From the NCBI GenBank assembly GCA_015061005.1, contig SUXJ01000007.1, positions 62,001 to 126,000 of the forward strand: a stretch of 64,000 nucleotides of DNA. The letters run 5' to 3'. Below the pieces are notes generated by a model, which was given only the letters and a program-made list of their open reading frames with translations, was not told where the DNA came from and searched no databases. The stretch comes from Bacteroidales bacterium (GTDB lineage Bacteria; Bacteroidota; Bacteroidia; Bacteroidales; Muribaculaceae). This document shows, one piece after another, positions 16,433-61,410 of the stretch (positions within the stretch are counted from its first letter, which is position 1; every line of letters starts with the position of its first letter). The position numbers and the translations under genes are program-made.

Positions 16433-16525
16433 TTAACAACATAATTGCCTCACTGAGCAGATTGGGAAACTCTTCAAACCTATTTAACTCCCGAGACAAG
16501 CTTAACGAATCAATGGCGGGCTCCA

Positions 16526-16552
16526 TCCCTTCGGGGAAGTGCCTTCGGGCAC
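16526..16552 (+). ncRNA. Two tandem UUCG-tetraloop hairpins (possible small RNA or 3' UTR structure)
   Basis: TCCC-TTCG-GGGA (16526-16537) is followed directly by GTGCC-TTCG-GGCAC (16539-16552). Both stems cap with the very stable UUCG loop. This spacing suggests a folded RNA in the 3' region of the frd transcript. No family match is claimed. Confidence 0.3.
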
Positions 16553-16646
16553 CAAGGCAGATTACAAAGGTTCGCGAGCACTCAAATCCTGTCATTCGGA
16601 GTTTCTTCCAAATCCTCAGTGAGGCTTTTTATTAAAGTAATAATAA

Positions 16647-19916: not shown

Positions 19917-20049
19917 TTCCTAATTAGAGAAATTTTTCTTTTTTTCAATACTGCAAAGTTACTCCATTTTATTCACATCTGCAACCCCTCATCACTTTTC
20001 ACTATCCACTCTCCACTAAAATCTACGATTTTGTCCTCCGAACCCTTCG

Positions 20050-20057
20050 TAACTTTG
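20050..20057 (+). promoter_or_regulatory. -7 box of RNA1, copy A
   Basis: TAACTTTG within CCCTTCGTAACTTTGCA, a string shared exactly with copy B (56691-56698). The flanking AAATCTACG about 30 nt upstream is also shared, so the promoter itself is conserved between copies. Confidence 0.55.
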
Positions 20058-20063
20058 CATCAG

Positions 20064-20222
20064 CAATGTTCAATGGAGTTCTTTGACGTATTGGAAAAAA
20101 GAGGGTGAATGATCCGTCCCGGTCATTCCAAACACGCCGCCGGGCAGGCCGCGGTCGGCAAAACTCAAGGTGGCTCCACCGATGCAAGCCCGGGAAACTT
20201 GCGCCGACCGAGCCGCCCTTTT
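20064..20222 (+). ncRNA. Structured RNA candidate RNA1, copy A
   Basis: The start is estimated 7 nt after the -7 box and the end is at a TTTT run. A conserved hairpin GAATGATC/GGTCATTC opens the core. CGGTCGGC (20152-20159) can pair with GCCGACCG (20203-20210), and GGTGGCTC (20169-20176) with GAGCCGCC (20210-20217); the interleaved order would make a pseudoknot. Between them lies the small hairpin GCAAG..CTTGC. Compared with copy B, the second helix changes on both strands and stays paired, which supports RNA structure. The U-run after the second helix may act as a terminator. I recognise no known family. Confidence 0.5.
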
Positions 20223-20261
20223 GTTCTCACCTTTCAGTTTTCACTTTTCACATATTTTCAC

Positions 20262-20269
20262 TACCTTTG
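20262..20269 (+). promoter_or_regulatory. -7 box of RNA2, copy A
   Basis: TACCTTTG directly followed by CAGCGCA. The same TAnnTTTGCAGCGCA string precedes the tRNA-Ala and tRNA-Asn genes of this window, which suggests a stable-RNA type promoter. Confidence 0.6.
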
Positions 20270-20364
20270 CAGCGCAGACCGCACCGCAGAAGCCCGGTCA
20301 TGGGCAAAGCGAGAGGGTCGGCTGACATACATAACTGAAAAGCGTTTACTCAACGCTCTTTTTT
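20270..20364 (+). ncRNA. Small RNA candidate RNA2, copy A
   Basis: About 95 nt between the promoter box and a clear intrinsic terminator (AGCGTT, loop TACTC, AACGCT, then CTTTTTT at 20341-20364). The core AGACCGCAC.GCAGAAGCCCGG and TCATGGGC is shared with copy B at 56972-57062, as is GAGGGTCGGC. GCCC/GGGC can form a hairpin with GGTCAT in its loop, and CCCGGTCAT also occurs in RNA1. It lies just upstream of an LRR lipoprotein gene. No known family recognised. Confidence 0.5.
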
Positions 20365-20395
20365 GTTCATCAATAATTATATCATTCAATTATAA

Positions 20396-56434: not shown

Positions 56435-56508
56435 GCTTCAGTAGCTCAGTTGGTTAGAGCACCTGACTGTTAATCAGGGGGTCGTTGGTTCAAGCCCATC
56501 CTGAAGCG
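56435..56508 (+). tRNA. tRNA-Asn (anticodon GTT), copy 1
   Basis: Acceptor GCTTCAG/CTGAAGC, D-arm GCTC..GAGC, anticodon stem CCTGA/TCAGG with loop CTGTTAA, T-arm GTTGG-TTCAAGC-CCATC. The T stem has one T:T mismatch at its second pair. Discriminator G; no encoded CCA. 74 nt. Confidence 0.95.
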
Positions 56509-56537: not shown

Positions 56538-56611
56538 GCTTCAGTAGCTCAGTTGGTTAGAGCACCTGACTGTTAATCAGGGGGTCGTTGGTTCAAGCCC
56601 ATCCTGAAGCG
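56538..56611 (+). tRNA. tRNA-Asn (anticodon GTT), copy 2
   Basis: Identical to copy 1 over its whole length, including the T-stem mismatch, with a 29-bp spacer between them. Tandem duplication of the gene is the simplest origin. Confidence 0.95.
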
Positions 56612-56690
56612 CAAAACTCCACCACTCTCGGTGGAGTTTTTTTTGCACCTTTTTTACGAAAATCTACGCTTTCACCCTCCATACCCTTCG

Positions 56691-56698
56691 TAACTTTG
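56691..56698 (+). promoter_or_regulatory. -7 box of RNA1, copy B
   Basis: TAACTTTG in the same CCCTTCGTAACTTTGCA context as copy A. Confidence 0.55.
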
Positions 56699-56704
56699 CA
56701 ACAT

Positions 56705-56866
56705 CCAAATGTCAAAGTTAGTACATTGAAATGTTGGAACAAGAGGGTGAATGATCCGTCCCGGTCATTCCAAACACGCCGCCGGGTAGGCCGCGGTCGG
56801 CAAAAACTCAAGGGGGACTCTGTCAGTGCAAGCCTGGGAAACTCGCACCGACCGAGTCCCCCTTTT
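56705..56866 (+). ncRNA. Structured RNA candidate RNA1, copy B
   Basis: The GAGGGTGAATGATCCGTCCC core and its downstream part match copy A almost exactly over about 60 nt. Helix a is CGGTCGG (56794-56800) with CCGACCG (56848-56854). Helix b is GGGGGACTC (56812-56820) with GAGTCCCCC (56854-56862), then TTTT. Copy A has GGTGGCTC/GAGCCGCC at helix b, so both sides changed together. The central hairpin differs similarly (GTGCAAG/CTCGCAC here, TGCAAG/CTTGCG in copy A). Confidence 0.5.
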
Positions 56867-56963
56867 GTCATCTCCGTCTCAATCCACTTAAAACACATTA
56901 GCCCCATAAATCACATAAATTTTAAAAATCATATACACTCTTTCCGATTTCACATTTTTTCAC

Positions 56964-56971
56964 TAACTTTG
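56964..56971 (+). promoter_or_regulatory. -7 box of RNA2, copy B
   Basis: TAACTTTG followed by CAGCGCAGACCGCAC, matching copy A except for one base inside the box spacer. Confidence 0.6.
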
Positions 56972-57062
56972 CAGCGCAGACCGCACTGCAGAAGCCCGGT
57001 CATGGGCATTGTGGGAGGGTCGGCAGACATAATGATTAGAAAGCGTTTACTCAACGCTCTTT
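56972..57062 (+). ncRNA. Small RNA candidate RNA2, copy B
   Basis: Shares AGACCGCAC.GCAGAAGCCCGG, TCATGGGC and GAGGGTCGGC with copy A. Its terminator hairpin (AGCGTT-TACTC-AACGCT, 57042-57058) is identical, but the T-run after it is broken (CTTTCTTGG), so readthrough into RNA3 is possible. Confidence 0.45.
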
Positions 57063-57090
57063 CTTGGCTTTTCGAAATCTGGTAAATTTC

Positions 57091-57278
57091 AATCACAGTC
57101 AGGTTAGATGCAGCGGTAGATGCCTTTGTGGATATGTATAAATATTGATTAACGCGATAGCGCTAATCCGTATCTCATATTCAGCGTGGGCTTCTGCGTT
57201 GCTCGTTCTACTGTGATGGGCATACCAGAGCCTCGAAAAGCGGGACGAGTAACAAGTACAGACTCTCACGCTTTTTTT
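57091..57278 (+). ncRNA. Third structured RNA candidate (RNA3) upstream of the LRR genes
   Basis: About 188 nt ending in T7. Predicted helices: GATTA.CGC/GCG.TAATC around a GATA loop (57147-57168); an 11-bp helix 57198-57208 with 57243-57253 (two G-T pairs); ATCACAGT (57092-57099) with ACTGTGAT (57210-57217), which would form a pseudoknot with the previous helix; and AGCGTG (57183-57188) with CACGCT (57267-57272) just before the T-run. It may be a separate RNA or a leader of the LRR gene at 57322. A weak box TAAATTTC lies at 57083. Family unknown. Confidence 0.4.
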
Positions 57279-57321: not shown

Positions 57322-58644
57322 ATGCTTATGCATACCTTAAAACACATCATCACGGCAGCCATGCTCCTATGCACTGCCACAGCCTTCGCCTATGACTTCG
57401 AAGTCAACGGCATCTATTACAACATCATCTCCGACTCCGAAGTCGAAGTAACCAACGGAGAAAATGCCTATGCTGGCGAAATAATAATCCCCGAAACTGT
57501 AACTTATTCCGAATACTCTACTTCGCCCCTTAAAGTCACTGCAATCGGTGGGGCCGCATTTCTTGGTTGCAGCAGCCTTACGTCAATTGAGATCCCTAAT
57601 AGCGTTACCACTATCAAGGGGAATGCATTTGACTTTTGCATCAGTCTTACGTCAATTGACATTCCTAATAGCGTTACCACTATCGAAAAATATGCCTTTT
57701 ATCGATGCAGATCTTTGGCACAAATTGAAATTCCTAATAGCGTTTCCACTATCGGCAATGGAGCATTTAGTCAATGTAGCAGCCTCACGTCAATTGAGAT
57801 CCCTAATAGCGTTACTGCTATCGGTTATTCCGCATTTCTTGGTTGCGGCAGCCTCACGTCAATTGAAATTCCTAATAGCGTTACTGCTATCGGTCATTCC
57901 GCATTTCGTGGTTGCGGCAGCCTCACGTCAATTAAAATTTCCAATAACATAACCTCTCTTCCCAGTGATATTTTTCGTGGATGCAATGGCTTGACATCAA
58001 TTGACATTCCCAATAGCGTAACCAATATTGATGATTATGCATTTGGCGATTGCACTAGCCTTACATCAATTACGATTCCTAATAGCGTAACCATTATCGA
58101 TGTTTTCGCATTTTACGGATGCACTAGCCTTACATCAATTAAGATTCCTAATAGCGTAACCTATATTCATGATGGCGCATTTTACGGATGCACTAACCTG
58201 ACATCAATTGAATTGCCCAATAGCATAACCAAACTTTCTCCTGTTACTTTTGCTAATTGCAGTGGCCTAATCTCAATTAGATTACCCAGCAACATCGGTG
58301 CAATTGGGGATGGAGCTTGCTATAATTGTAGTAATTTACAACACATATACTGTCTACGTGAAGTTCCTGCTGCGTGTTTGATGGAGGATAGAGGATGTTT
58401 TCAAGGCGTCCCGGTTGAAACCTGCGTACTGCACGTGCCGGCAGGCTGTGTTGAGGCGTATCAAGCTGCCGACGGTTGGAAAGACTTCGTAAACATCGTG
58501 GGCGACGCAGCCGGCATCGAAAACGTCACAACCGCTGACGGTCCGGCGGAATACTTCGACCTGCAGGGCAGAAAAGTCACCGCCCCATCCAACGGTATCT
58601 TCATCAAAAAACAAGGCAACTCCACCTCAAAAATCAAACTCTAA
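57322..58644 (+). CDS. BspA-type LRR protein with sorting-like tail, LRR-1
   Basis: The 440-aa protein has a signal peptide (MLMHTLKHIITAAMLLCTATAFA; MHTLK at 57328 is a possible alternative start). A short beta region DFEVNGIYYNIISDSEVEV follows, then about 12 LRR_5 repeats (SIEIPNSVTTIGxxAFxxCxSL). A capping segment is HVPAGCVEAYQAADGW and the tail is YFDLQGRKVTAPSNGIFIKKQG. The tail resembles those of putative T9SS cargo in Muribaculaceae. It is the first of three adjacent LRR genes. From residue about 33 on it is identical to the second. Confidence 0.85.
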   Translation: MLMHTLKHIITAAMLLCTATAFAYDFEVNGIYYNIISDSEVEVTNGENAYAGEIIIPETVTYSEYSTSPLKVTAIGGAAFLGCSSLTSIEIPNSVTTIKGNAFDFCISLTSIDIPNSVTTIEKYAFYRCRSLAQIEIPNSVSTIGNGAFSQCSSLTSIEIPNSVTAIGYSAFLGCGSLTSIEIPNSVTAIGHSAFRGCGSLTSIKISNNITSLPSDIFRGCNGLTSIDIPNSVTNIDDYAFGDCTSLTSITIPNSVTIIDVFAFYGCTSLTSIKIPNSVTYIHDGAFYGCTNLTSIELPNSITKLSPVTFANCSGLISIRLPSNIGAIGDGACYNCSNLQHIYCLREVPAACLMEDRGCFQGVPVETCVLHVPAGCVEAYQAADGWKDFVNIVGDAAGIENVTTADGPAEYFDLQGRKVTAPSNGIFIKKQGNSTSKIKL

Positions 58645-60095
58645 ACAGGTATGAAACTAAAATCATTAGTAGCATCTATAATGTGCTGCATGGCTGCCAC
58701 AGCCTTCGCCCAAGACTTCGAAGTCAACGGCATCTACTACAACATCATCTCCGACTCCGAAGTCGAAGTAACCAACGGAGAAAATGCCTATGCTGGCGAA
58801 ATAATAATCCCCGAAACTGTAACTTATTCCGAATACTCTACTTCGCCCCTTAAAGTCACTGCAATCGGTGGGGCCGCATTTCTTGGTTGCAGCAGCCTTA
58901 CGTCAATTGAGATCCCTAATAGCGTTACCACTATCAAGGGGAATGCATTTGACTTTTGCATCAGTCTTACGTCAATTGACATTCCTAATAGCGTTACCAC
59001 TATCGAAAAATATGCCTTTTATCGATGCAGATCTTTGGCACAAATTGAAATTCCTAATAGCGTTTCCACTATCGGCAATGGAGCATTTAGTCAATGTAGC
59101 AGCCTCACGTCAATTGAGATCCCTAATAGCGTTACTGCTATCGGTTATTCCGCATTTCTTGGTTGCGGCAGCCTCACGTCAATTGAAATTCCTAATAGCG
59201 TTACTGCTATCGGTCATTCCGCATTTCGTGGTTGCGGCAGCCTCACGTCAATTAAAATTTCCAATAACATAACCTCTCTTCCCAGTGATATTTTTCGTGG
59301 ATGCAATGGCTTGACATCAATTGACATTCCCAATAGCGTAACCAATATTGATGATTATGCATTTGGCGATTGCACTAGCCTTACATCAATTACGATTCCT
59401 AATAGCGTAACCATTATCGATGTTTTCGCATTTTACGGATGCACTAGCCTTACATCAATTAAGATTCCTAATAGCGTAACCTATATTCATGATGGCGCAT
59501 TTTACGGATGCACTAACCTGACATCAATTGAATTGCCCAATAGCATAACCAAACTTTCTCCTGTTACTTTTGCTAATTGCAGTGGCCTAATCTCAATTAG
59601 ATTACCCAGCAACATCGGTGCAATTGGGGATGGAGCTTGCTATAATTGTAGTAATTTACAACACATATACTGTCTACGTGAAGTTCCTGCTGCGTGTTTG
59701 ATGGAGGATAGAGGATGTTTTCAAGGCGTCCCGGTTGAAACCTGCGTACTGCACGTGCCGGCAGGCTGTGTTGAGGCGTATCAAGCTGCCGACGGTTGGA
59801 AAGACTTCGTAAACATCGTGGGCGACGCAGCCGGCATCGAAAACGTCACAACCGCTGACGGTCCGGCGGAATACTTCGACCTGCAGGGCAGAAAAGTCAC
59901 CGCCCCATCCAACGGTATCTTCATCAAAAAACAAGGCAACTCCACCTCAAAAATCAAACTCTAAACAGGTATGAAACTAAAATCATTAGTAGCATCTATA
60001 ATGTGCTGCATGGCTGCCACAGCCTTCGCCCAAGACTTCGAAGTCAACGGCATCTACTACAACATCATCTCCGACTCCGAAGTCGAAGTAACCAA
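57418..60095 (+). repeat. Perfect tandem duplication, period 1320 bp, covering the LRR genes
   Basis: Positions 57418-58775 read the same as 58738-60095, base for base (1358 bases), when I compare lines at an offset of 1320. Left of 57418 the copies diverge (TATTAC against TACTAC at 57417). Right of 58775 they diverge at ACCAACGG against ACCAAAAA. The second copy thus has the N-terminus of the third gene and the body of the first, as expected from unequal crossover in the shared signal and beta region. Confidence 0.95.
58651..59964 (+). CDS. BspA-type LRR protein with sorting-like tail, LRR-2 (duplicate)
   Basis: The 437-aa protein has the signal peptide of LRR-3 (MKLKSLVASIMCCMAATAFAQ) followed by a body identical to LRR-1. 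It starts 6 bp after LRR-1, so the three genes form an operon. Repeats, cap and tail are as in LRR-1. The hybrid structure shows it arose by recombination between LRR-1 and LRR-3 rather than by slow divergence. The identical copy could also be a collapse or expansion artefact of assembly. Confidence 0.85.
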   Translation: MKLKSLVASIMCCMAATAFAQDFEVNGIYYNIISDSEVEVTNGENAYAGEIIIPETVTYSEYSTSPLKVTAIGGAAFLGCSSLTSIEIPNSVTTIKGNAFDFCISLTSIDIPNSVTTIEKYAFYRCRSLAQIEIPNSVSTIGNGAFSQCSSLTSIEIPNSVTAIGYSAFLGCGSLTSIEIPNSVTAIGHSAFRGCGSLTSIKISNNITSLPSDIFRGCNGLTSIDIPNSVTNIDDYAFGDCTSLTSITIPNSVTIIDVFAFYGCTSLTSIKIPNSVTYIHDGAFYGCTNLTSIELPNSITKLSPVTFANCSGLISIRLPSNIGAIGDGACYNCSNLQHIYCLREVPAACLMEDRGCFQGVPVETCVLHVPAGCVEAYQAADGWKDFVNIVGDAAGIENVTTADGPAEYFDLQGRKVTAPSNGIFIKKQGNSTSKIKL

Positions 60096-61410
60096 AAATT
60101 CCGATTGGTTCAGTAATGAATATGCCGGCGACATTGTAATTCCTGAAACTGTTACTTATTTCAACAAAACTTACAATGTAACCAAGATCGCAGGTCAAGC
60201 TTTCATGCACAGTGGTATAACCTCAATCACAATCGACAACAATGTTAAAGAAATTGGCGAAAGCGCATTTGCACTGAGTACAAATTTAACAACAGCAAAA
60301 CTTCCAGATGGTATTCAAAGCATTAGCAATGAGATGTTCCATGGTTGCAGCTTAACTGCTATCCATATTCCCGAGAGTGTTACTCAGATTGGTTATTCAG
60401 CATTCTTTGAGTGCGACTTTGAAGAAGTGAATATTCCGAATAGTGTTACTAAAATCGGGTTTAGTGCATTTGATTGTTGTCATAATTTAACTTCGATAAA
60501 CATTCCATGCGGCGTTACGATTATTGAATACAGAACATTTTATAATTGCTCATCTTTGGCATCAGTTACAATTCCTGAAAGCGTTACGGAGATACAGGAC
60601 GAAGCATTCAGTTTTTGTAAAAATTTAACGTCAATATATATTCCAGAGAAAGTTTCAAACATCGGGAATAGAGCCTTTCAATCTTCAGGTTTAGCATCGG
60701 TAACACTGCCTGCGAATTTAAGCGAAATCGGCTCATACACTTTCCACAATACTCCATTTTATAACAATTTACCTGATGGCACCGTATATTTAGGCAAGAT
60801 TCTTTACTCATATAAAGGAGAAATGCCGGAAAACGCCTCAATTTCTATCAAAGAAGGAACGTTCAGTATAAGCGGCAATGCTTTTTACAACTGCATAAAT
60901 TTGACTGCAGTTAACATTCCCAACACCGTTAAAAATATCGGAATGTACGCTTTCGCTGGATGTAGCAACCTGAAATCTGTCGAAATTCCTAATGGCATAA
61001 CCGTTTTAGACGAATGCGTTTTCTCCGGATGCAGCAGCTTGAAAACAATCACTATTCCCGAAAGCGTTACTTCCTTTAATTGGCGAGCAATGGCAAATTG
61101 CTCAGCATTAGAACACATCTATAATCATGCAAAAACTCCTGCGTATTGTTCCGAAGGTGTCTTTGAAAATACTCCGGTCGAAACTTGCGTCCTTCACGTG
61201 CCCACCGGCTGCATCGATGCTTATCGTGCGGAAGAATCCAATTGGAACCAATTTAAAATCATCGTTGATGACGCTGCCGGCATCGAAGACGTTACAACCG
61301 CTGACGGTCCGGCGGAATACTTCGACCTGCAGGGCAGAAAAGTCACCGACCCATCCAACGGCATCTTCATCAAAAAGCAAGGCAACTCCACAGAGAAAGT
61401 ATTGCTATAA
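59971..61410 (+). CDS. BspA-type LRR protein with sorting-like tail, LRR-3
   Basis: The 479-aa protein has the same signal peptide and first 42 or so residues as LRR-2. Its LRR body is distinct (for example ITIDNNVKEIGESAFALSTNL, IHIPESVTQIGYSAFFEC) with a non-LRR insert around residue 265 (FYNNLPDGTVYLGKILYSYKG). The cap HVPTGCIDAYRAEESNW and tail YFDLQGRKVTDPSNGIFIKKQG match the other two. It is last in the operon and is followed by a terminator. Confidence 0.85.
   Translation: MKLKSLVASIMCCMAATAFAQDFEVNGIYYNIISDSEVEVTKNSDWFSNEYAGDIVIPETVTYFNKTYNVTKIAGQAFMHSGITSITIDNNVKEIGESAFALSTNLTTAKLPDGIQSISNEMFHGCSLTAIHIPESVTQIGYSAFFECDFEEVNIPNSVTKIGFSAFDCCHNLTSINIPCGVTIIEYRTFYNCSSLASVTIPESVTEIQDEAFSFCKNLTSIYIPEKVSNIGNRAFQSSGLASVTLPANLSEIGSYTFHNTPFYNNLPDGTVYLGKILYSYKGEMPENASISIKEGTFSISGNAFYNCINLTAVNIPNTVKNIGMYAFAGCSNLKSVEIPNGITVLDECVFSGCSSLKTITIPESVTSFNWRAMANCSALEHIYNHAKTPAYCSEGVFENTPVETCVLHVPTGCIDAYRAEESNWNQFKIIVDDAAGIEDVTTADGPAEYFDLQGRKVTDPSNGIFIKKQGNSTEKVLL

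Follow-up and report, generated by a model that had tools for sequence, protein, structure and literature searches.

Gene transfer agents are known in Rhodobacter, Bartonella and Brachyspira (PMC12946183), and a 2026 gut survey assigned packaging of this kind chiefly to Ruminococcaceae and Oscillospiraceae, with lateral transduction in Bacteroides (PMC12946183). The literature that we searched yielded no Bacteroidales gene transfer agent and no paper joining gene transfer agents with Muribaculaceae. The genome discussed here resembles the known systems in part: phage-type terminase, capsid and lysis genes are kept in the chromosome, and portal and tail genes were not identified; it is unlike them in that the genes, known here from their sequences alone, stand singly among housekeeping genes under one promoter.

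The window, the 64,000-nucleotide stretch of this genome that was analysed, also carries two RNA-like elements, which we call RNA1 and RNA2. Terminator-type riboswitches and attenuator leaders are the closest counterparts of RNA2, which shares with them a 300-nt structured 5' leader, conserved and mutually exclusive partners for its terminator, and a short distance to the start codon; it differs from terminator-type riboswitches in having no known aptamer or Rfam match and in preceding functionally diverse surface and accessory genes, not those of one pathway. The Rfam Bacteroidales-1 RNA (RF01693) is likewise a structured RNA of Bacteroidales, and one copy is present in the window at 16446–16632 (133 bits), but this is a separate locus, and RNA1 and RNA2 gave chance-level matches only against Rfam at both gathering and permissive thresholds. 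We think it likely that RNA1 is part of a phage regulon that is dispersed and gene-transfer-agent-like, and that RNA2 is a separate, new attenuator-type leader.

Copies A and B and the dispersed RNA1 repeat

Copy B (56655–57064) and copy A (20015–20365) are 73% identical over 413 columns (E 4e-65); an RNA1 core of 60 nt is almost the same in the two and much of RNA2 is shared, while the spacers diverge, as a preliminary description of this DNA had proposed. The features of both copies are on the + strand. In copy B, RNA1 is a predicted small structured RNA at 56700–56866, its start placed from the promoter, with hairpins at 56749–56770 and 56778–56801 (from the sequence and the alignment of copies) and an intrinsic-terminator helix, AAGGGGGACTC/GAGTCCCCCTT, at 56810–56820/56854–56864. 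Copy A contains RNA1 with its promoter at 20019–20220 (AAATCTACGA at 20019–20028, TAACTTTG at 20050–20057, terminator helix at about 20168–20220) and, judged by alignment to copy B and to full-length copies, only the first third of RNA2 (20262–20365). Within the window GGGGGACTC is found solely as both arms of the RNA1 terminator hairpin. Two tandem, nearly identical tRNA genes (56435–56508 and 56538–56611) lie directly 5' of copy B; their anticodon, read from the sequence, is GTT, which makes them tRNA-Asn genes.

The terminator helix is the one in which compensatory change had been reported, and the sequences agree with that report: it reads AAGGTGGCTC/GAGCCGCCCTT in copy A and AAGGGGGACTC/GAGTCCCCCTT in copy B, so that a T.G pair is replaced by G-C and one matched A-T pair is gained. 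BspA-type leucine-rich repeat (LRR) genes do lie 3' of both copies (PF13306 in Pfam, E 2e-147 and 1e-141). Two copies had been counted; the genome (2.12 Mb, 18 contigs) actually holds about 18 of RNA1, leaving out opposite-strand matches to the palindromic terminator and short matches at chance level, and seven of RNA2. RNA1 was not detected in 60 relatives (10 congeners and 50 genomes further removed), its core has no match in viral contigs, and neither RNA1 nor RNA2 has a match in phage and plasmid record collections.

The RNA1 copies form two subfamilies. Class 1 (L001–L008 and copy A) is composed of promoter and RNA1, and class 2 (L009, L011–L013 and L015–L017) is a longer form. In five longer copies (L072, L073 and L077–L079) the same promoter is followed by an open reading frame, ORF X, and RNA1 is at the 3' end; L014 and L018 are deletion forms, and L074 and L075 also have internal deletions. 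The 60-nt core is near-invariant in both subfamilies and the flanks vary widely. Some elements, for example L003 and L077, are flanked in the intergenic DNA by tandem 9-nt repeats such as ACATAAGNN / TTATAAATC, and TTGACRTRYTGG, which is similar to the boxA-like sequence CTTTGACATNTTGG, is found immediately 5' of the core in this genome.

An LRR gene is downstream of RNA1 in only three of the 18 copies, each of which adjoins RNA2. The genes that follow other copies include those for PGK, DUF349, a TypA-type GTPase, a citrate-type transporter, a FadL-type porin, Fe-ADH, an aminotransferase, a GDSL lipase, a BamD-like protein and LysE. RNA1 is thus a dispersed repeat, with 15 of 18 copies before unrelated genes, and such a distribution is what the preliminary description had itself held to speak against RNA1 as a regulator linked to LRR genes.

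Like MITEs and REP-type repeats, RNA1 is short, multicopy, palindromic and lineage-specific and has a longer coding form, and it could be just such a DNA repeat, a non-autonomous form derived from the ORF X element, with hairpins that act as DNA ends for movement and without function as RNA. The multiple, species-specific copies, the ends held in common with the ORF-bearing form, the internal deletions (L014, L018, L074, L075) and the variable neighbours all fit this explanation. It accords poorly with a core almost invariant between subfamilies that have otherwise diverged, with the phage-type promoter on most copies, and with orientation, RNA1 being co-directional with the upstream gene in 16 of 18 copies and with the downstream gene in 16 of 18; inspection of the flanks by eye also showed no target-site duplication. 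RNA1 is further unlike these repeats in its phage-regulon promoter and RNA-type terminator, and its partner protein is terminase-like, not a transposase. We regard a purely DNA-level repeat as possible but rather doubtful, and prefer to read RNA1 as a transcribed part of the phage regulon.

The A/B comparison had been offered as direct evidence for selection on base pairing. Across 17 RNA1 copies the 36 pairs are 98.4% paired, with double changes at three pairs (nine cells) and a covariation score of 0.050, compared to 0.027 for shuffled and at most 0.036 for slid alignments. Copy A supplies two of the three doubly changed pairs, the B-type G-C pair is kept in 16 of the 17 copies with copy A as the exception, and in L012 and L014 an A-U pair of the stem is broken to A-C without compensation. 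Because A is the odd copy and only 3 of 36 pairs are doubly changed, the A/B comparison contributes a minor share of the evidence. The signal in RNA1 is weak but real; selection on its pairing, judged from these recent copies, is plausible but not strong; the claim holds overwhelmingly for RNA2 (below).

A shared promoter, scattered phage-like genes and ORF X

The RNA1 promoter motif consists of AAAATCTACGCT, 21 nt and TAnnTTTG. In copy B the putative promoter is at 56660–56698, with AAATCTACGC at 56660–56669 (TCTACGC from 56663) and TAACTTTG at 56691–56698, and AAATCTACGCTTT is found at the 5' ends of the majority of RNA1 and ORF X elements, as well as at a few other sites. The pattern TCTACGC-N(16-27)-TAnnTTTG has 30 sites in this genome (reversed control pattern, 0+2), 26 of which have a span of exactly 36 nt. 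Seventeen of the 30 fall in RNA1 or ORF X elements, or in what remains of them. A further nine keep the 36-nt span and carry AAAA upstream, and all nine precede phage-like genes; the remaining four (nadA and others), with spans of 33–35 and lacking the AAAA, resemble chance matches.

Two of the phage-like genes that share the promoter encode terminases (PHROG terminase, E 2e-20), and an operon among them includes the gene for an SU10-type major capsid protein (PF17236, E 8e-48). A gene of 633 aa, which has no family match, is called tail-like solely because in other genera it stands before terminase; a holin-like/lysozyme pair was assigned by its sequence; and four further genes belong to a single family, of which the one scanned weakly matches Lin1244_N/DUF1376-type phage replication domains. 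No portal, tail tube or tail genes were identified in this set. The nine loci (C1:101376, C3:134862, C2:9966, C5:21274, C18:100560, C4:7423, C9:105558, C14:23499 and C17:87820) each sit among apparent housekeeping genes. Of the 27 family genomes examined, 24 carry the terminase, mostly as a single copy, and viral contigs contain only distant relatives (best 46% identity), a pattern like that of gene transfer agents; unlike in the classical agents, the terminase locus differs in each congener. TCTACG-like boxes are retained in the terminase promoters of several congeners. The simplest reading of these sequences is that the set is dispersed, domesticated and gene-transfer-agent-like.

ORF X is 180–210 aa long and is encoded in the five longer RNA1 elements, at C8:13.7k (L072), C12:13.2k (L073), C3:35.8k (L079), C6:11.4k (L078) and C8:222k (L077, frameshifted). 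Searches of Pfam, PHROGs, NCBIfam and PDB gave nothing convincing, and viral contigs, as well as genome contigs queried with a single protein, gave no match; one match in genome G002 was discarded as due to chance. Homologues (E ≤ 0.001) are present in 15 of 297 family genomes, often in multiple copies, with a maximum of 12 matches per genome. The kinship of ORF X to terminase emerged only through this genome's own terminases: a profile comparison with terminases of the same family gave an hhalign probability of 96.7 (E 3e-10, 135 columns), which places ORF X in homology with the terminase ATPase domain. The Walker A motif of the terminase, KSRQWGCST, is aligned opposite about NDPSGTLTR of ORF X, in which conservation extends over only about 160 aa and takes in neither an intact Walker A nor a nuclease domain; ORF X probably has no ATPase activity. 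The dN/dS between copies, within seven genomes, is 0.05–0.25, indicating purifying selection.

A promoter-like TAnnTTTG box precedes most of the ORF X homologues inspected, and a CATTATCGCAC-like upstream box is present in three genomes. The homologue at C18:5734–6094 of genome G007 (L085) has a TTCTACGCT-type promoter that is cut by the contig end, as is expected for a repeat. ORF X elements in several genomes (G178, G214, G238, G297 and G155; L115, L119, L117, L113, L109 and others) have a GCGG hairpin at their 3' ends, followed in several genomes by the boxA-like CTTTGACATNTTGG; the assembly contains no 16S gene whose leader could be compared with this sequence.

We therefore picture RNA1, within the phage regulon that we favour, as the 3' portion of an element present in many copies and specific to this species; in its longer form the element also encodes ORF X, a degenerate relative of the large terminase. 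A dedicated promoter, common to the scattered phage-like genes, would drive RNA1, which would then be made when the gene-transfer-agent-like genes are switched on, and RNA1 and ORF X may modulate or parasitise packaging.

RNA2, a probable leader of surface and accessory genes

RNA2 of copy B (+ strand) is preceded by a putative -7 box, TAACTTTG, at 56964–56971 that has no TCTACGC element upstream. The element had been thought to end at a hairpin at 57062; this hairpin lies inside RNA2, and full-length copies, alike over about 300 nt up to a closing CTCTCACGCTTTTTT, extend the predicted structured leader from about 56977 to about 57290. It leads a BspA-type LRR gene at 57322–58644 (Pfam), the first of an array with further + strand open reading frames at 58651–59964 (LRR by Pfam) and 59971–61410 (seen as an open reading frame only).

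A scan that required an exact 24-nt motif, GCGTTTACTYNNCGCTCTTTYTTG, and so biases both the distribution and the apparent conservation of that stretch, found at least 115 instances in at least 114 stretches of genome contigs and one viral contig. The exact motif is present in four of seven genomes of this organism's own family and in 0 of 385 others in a sample of the order. The titles of the matching records are mostly Muribaculaceae or uncultured Bacteroidales, and the few RNA2-bearing MAG titles that name other taxa may be mislabelled; from these titles the family is very likely Muribaculaceae. Copy number varies among genomes. RNA2 is not named in the main text of a catalogue from 2021 that lists candidate RNAs of human microbiomes (PMC8040213), whose supplement may list it under a number. 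RNA2 is an uncatalogued, Muribaculaceae-type RNA family with no match in Rfam.

At least 105 copies are followed by an open reading frame on the same strand, with a median of 57 nt from terminator to ATG. BspA-LRR proteins (PF13306, LRR_5) are the commonest downstream family, at 15 of 80, and are accompanied by DUF6567, DUF4595, C10 peptidase and TerB-like proteins and many unknowns. Among upstream neighbours PF13306 accounts for at most 1 of 66, since it is absent from the 25 commonest families listed there. This difference indicates that the LRR association proposed in the preliminary description belongs to RNA2 and not to RNA1.

The structure of RNA2 was derived by helix scan and pair counts from 58 nonredundant, diverse copies; RNAalifold missed long-range helices that the scan later recovered. 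Its 48 pairs have 97.1% of cells paired and double changes at 29 pairs (438 cells), and the covariation score is 0.461 compared to 0.181 for shuffled and at most 0.083 for slid alignments, some of the excess over slid being expected by construction, as the structure came from the alignment that was scored. Helix H1, GCTTTTCGA/TCGAAAAGC (57067–57075/57233–57241), has the strongest covariation of all; further helices are H2, TCTGGTA/TACCAGA (57078–57084/57223–57229), and H3, TCACAGT/ACTGTGA (57093–57099/57210–57216). Many pair types are found in H1 and H2, for example UA:27 AU:16 GC:10 CG:3 at one pair.

The putative terminator spans 57184–57278, with arms GCGTG.. (from 57184) and ..CTCTCACGC (57263–57271), an inner stem TTGCTCGTTC/GGACGAGTAA (57199–57208/57243–57252, from pair counts) and a U tract at 57272–57278. 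A long-range 5' helix, GCAGAAGCC/GGCTTCTGC (56988–56996/57189–57197), overlaps its 5' arm. Alternative pairings that reuse the same strands are 94.1% paired and have 77 double-change cells: the 5' GCAGAAGCC with the terminator 5' arm, AAAGCGU with the 3' arm and U tract, and AGCAAAC with GUUUGCU. Just upstream of the start codon is a hairpin whose loop is complementary to the terminator 3' arm; this match is short in the window's copy, and on average the native sequence matches better than every one of 200 shuffles. A covarying, structured 5' leader whose terminator takes part in mutually exclusive pairings has, as far as sequence can tell, the anatomy of a terminator-type switch.

RNA2 might instead be a packaging, processing or recombination element that moves as a unit with one accessory gene, an explanation suggested by the diversity and accessory nature of the downstream genes and by the genome-dependent copy number. 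The geometry of promoter, terminator and start codon, together with the mutually exclusive terminator pairings, fits a regulatory leader better, and we consider the mobile-unit explanation unlikely. As a leader, RNA2 would be a large cis-acting element in front of surface and accessory genes, most often BspA-LRR genes, and its long-range helices would fold around a terminator with conserved partners elsewhere for both arms. It may act as a transcription attenuator or riboswitch-like switch, with transcripts that would start at TAnnTTTG, stop at CTCACGCTTTT and read through to a variable extent.

Adjacency of RNA1 and RNA2, and what the elements mean

RNA1 and RNA2 adjoin at three loci, in the same order and each before BspA-LRR genes, and this adjacency could be meaningful. 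The constant order and context are what speaks for the original model, in which the two are one regulatory cassette for LRR genes. That model is largely refuted by the contexts of the copies, as 15 of 18 RNA1 copies and four of seven RNA2 copies stand alone, RNA2 does not have the TCTACGC promoter, and it occurs in species that have no detectable RNA1; we judge a joint cassette very improbable. Two of the three loci, L001 (copy B) and L002, are duplicates, 93% alike in the leader and the start of the LRR gene. The LRR gene of copy A differs from theirs, and its RNA2 is incomplete. From these sequences the adjacency is probably due to co-duplication of LRR loci with a chance insertion of RNA1, and needs no functional link. 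Taken as a whole, the preliminary observation is partly confirmed and its interpretation partly supported.

RNA1 leads to scattered phage genes under one promoter and hence to a possible gene-transfer system, a kind of system that is not described for the order in the literature searched. More speculatively, and we put this forward only tentatively, a family of Bacteroidales may possess a dispersed, gene-transfer-agent-like phage regulon with a promoter class of its own, whose small RNAs and catalytically degenerate terminase-like proteins multiply as species-specific satellites and steer or exploit packaging, and, separately, a new class of 300-nt RNA switch for surface and accessory genes. 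Some RNA2 matches are in isolate-titled records (Isolate-104 HZI, Isolate-002 NCI), so a direct test for its ligand or signal is feasible. As a large, covarying family of RNAs, RNA2 occurs in a dominant, poorly understood family of gut bacteria, and many of the genes that it leads are probably host-facing.
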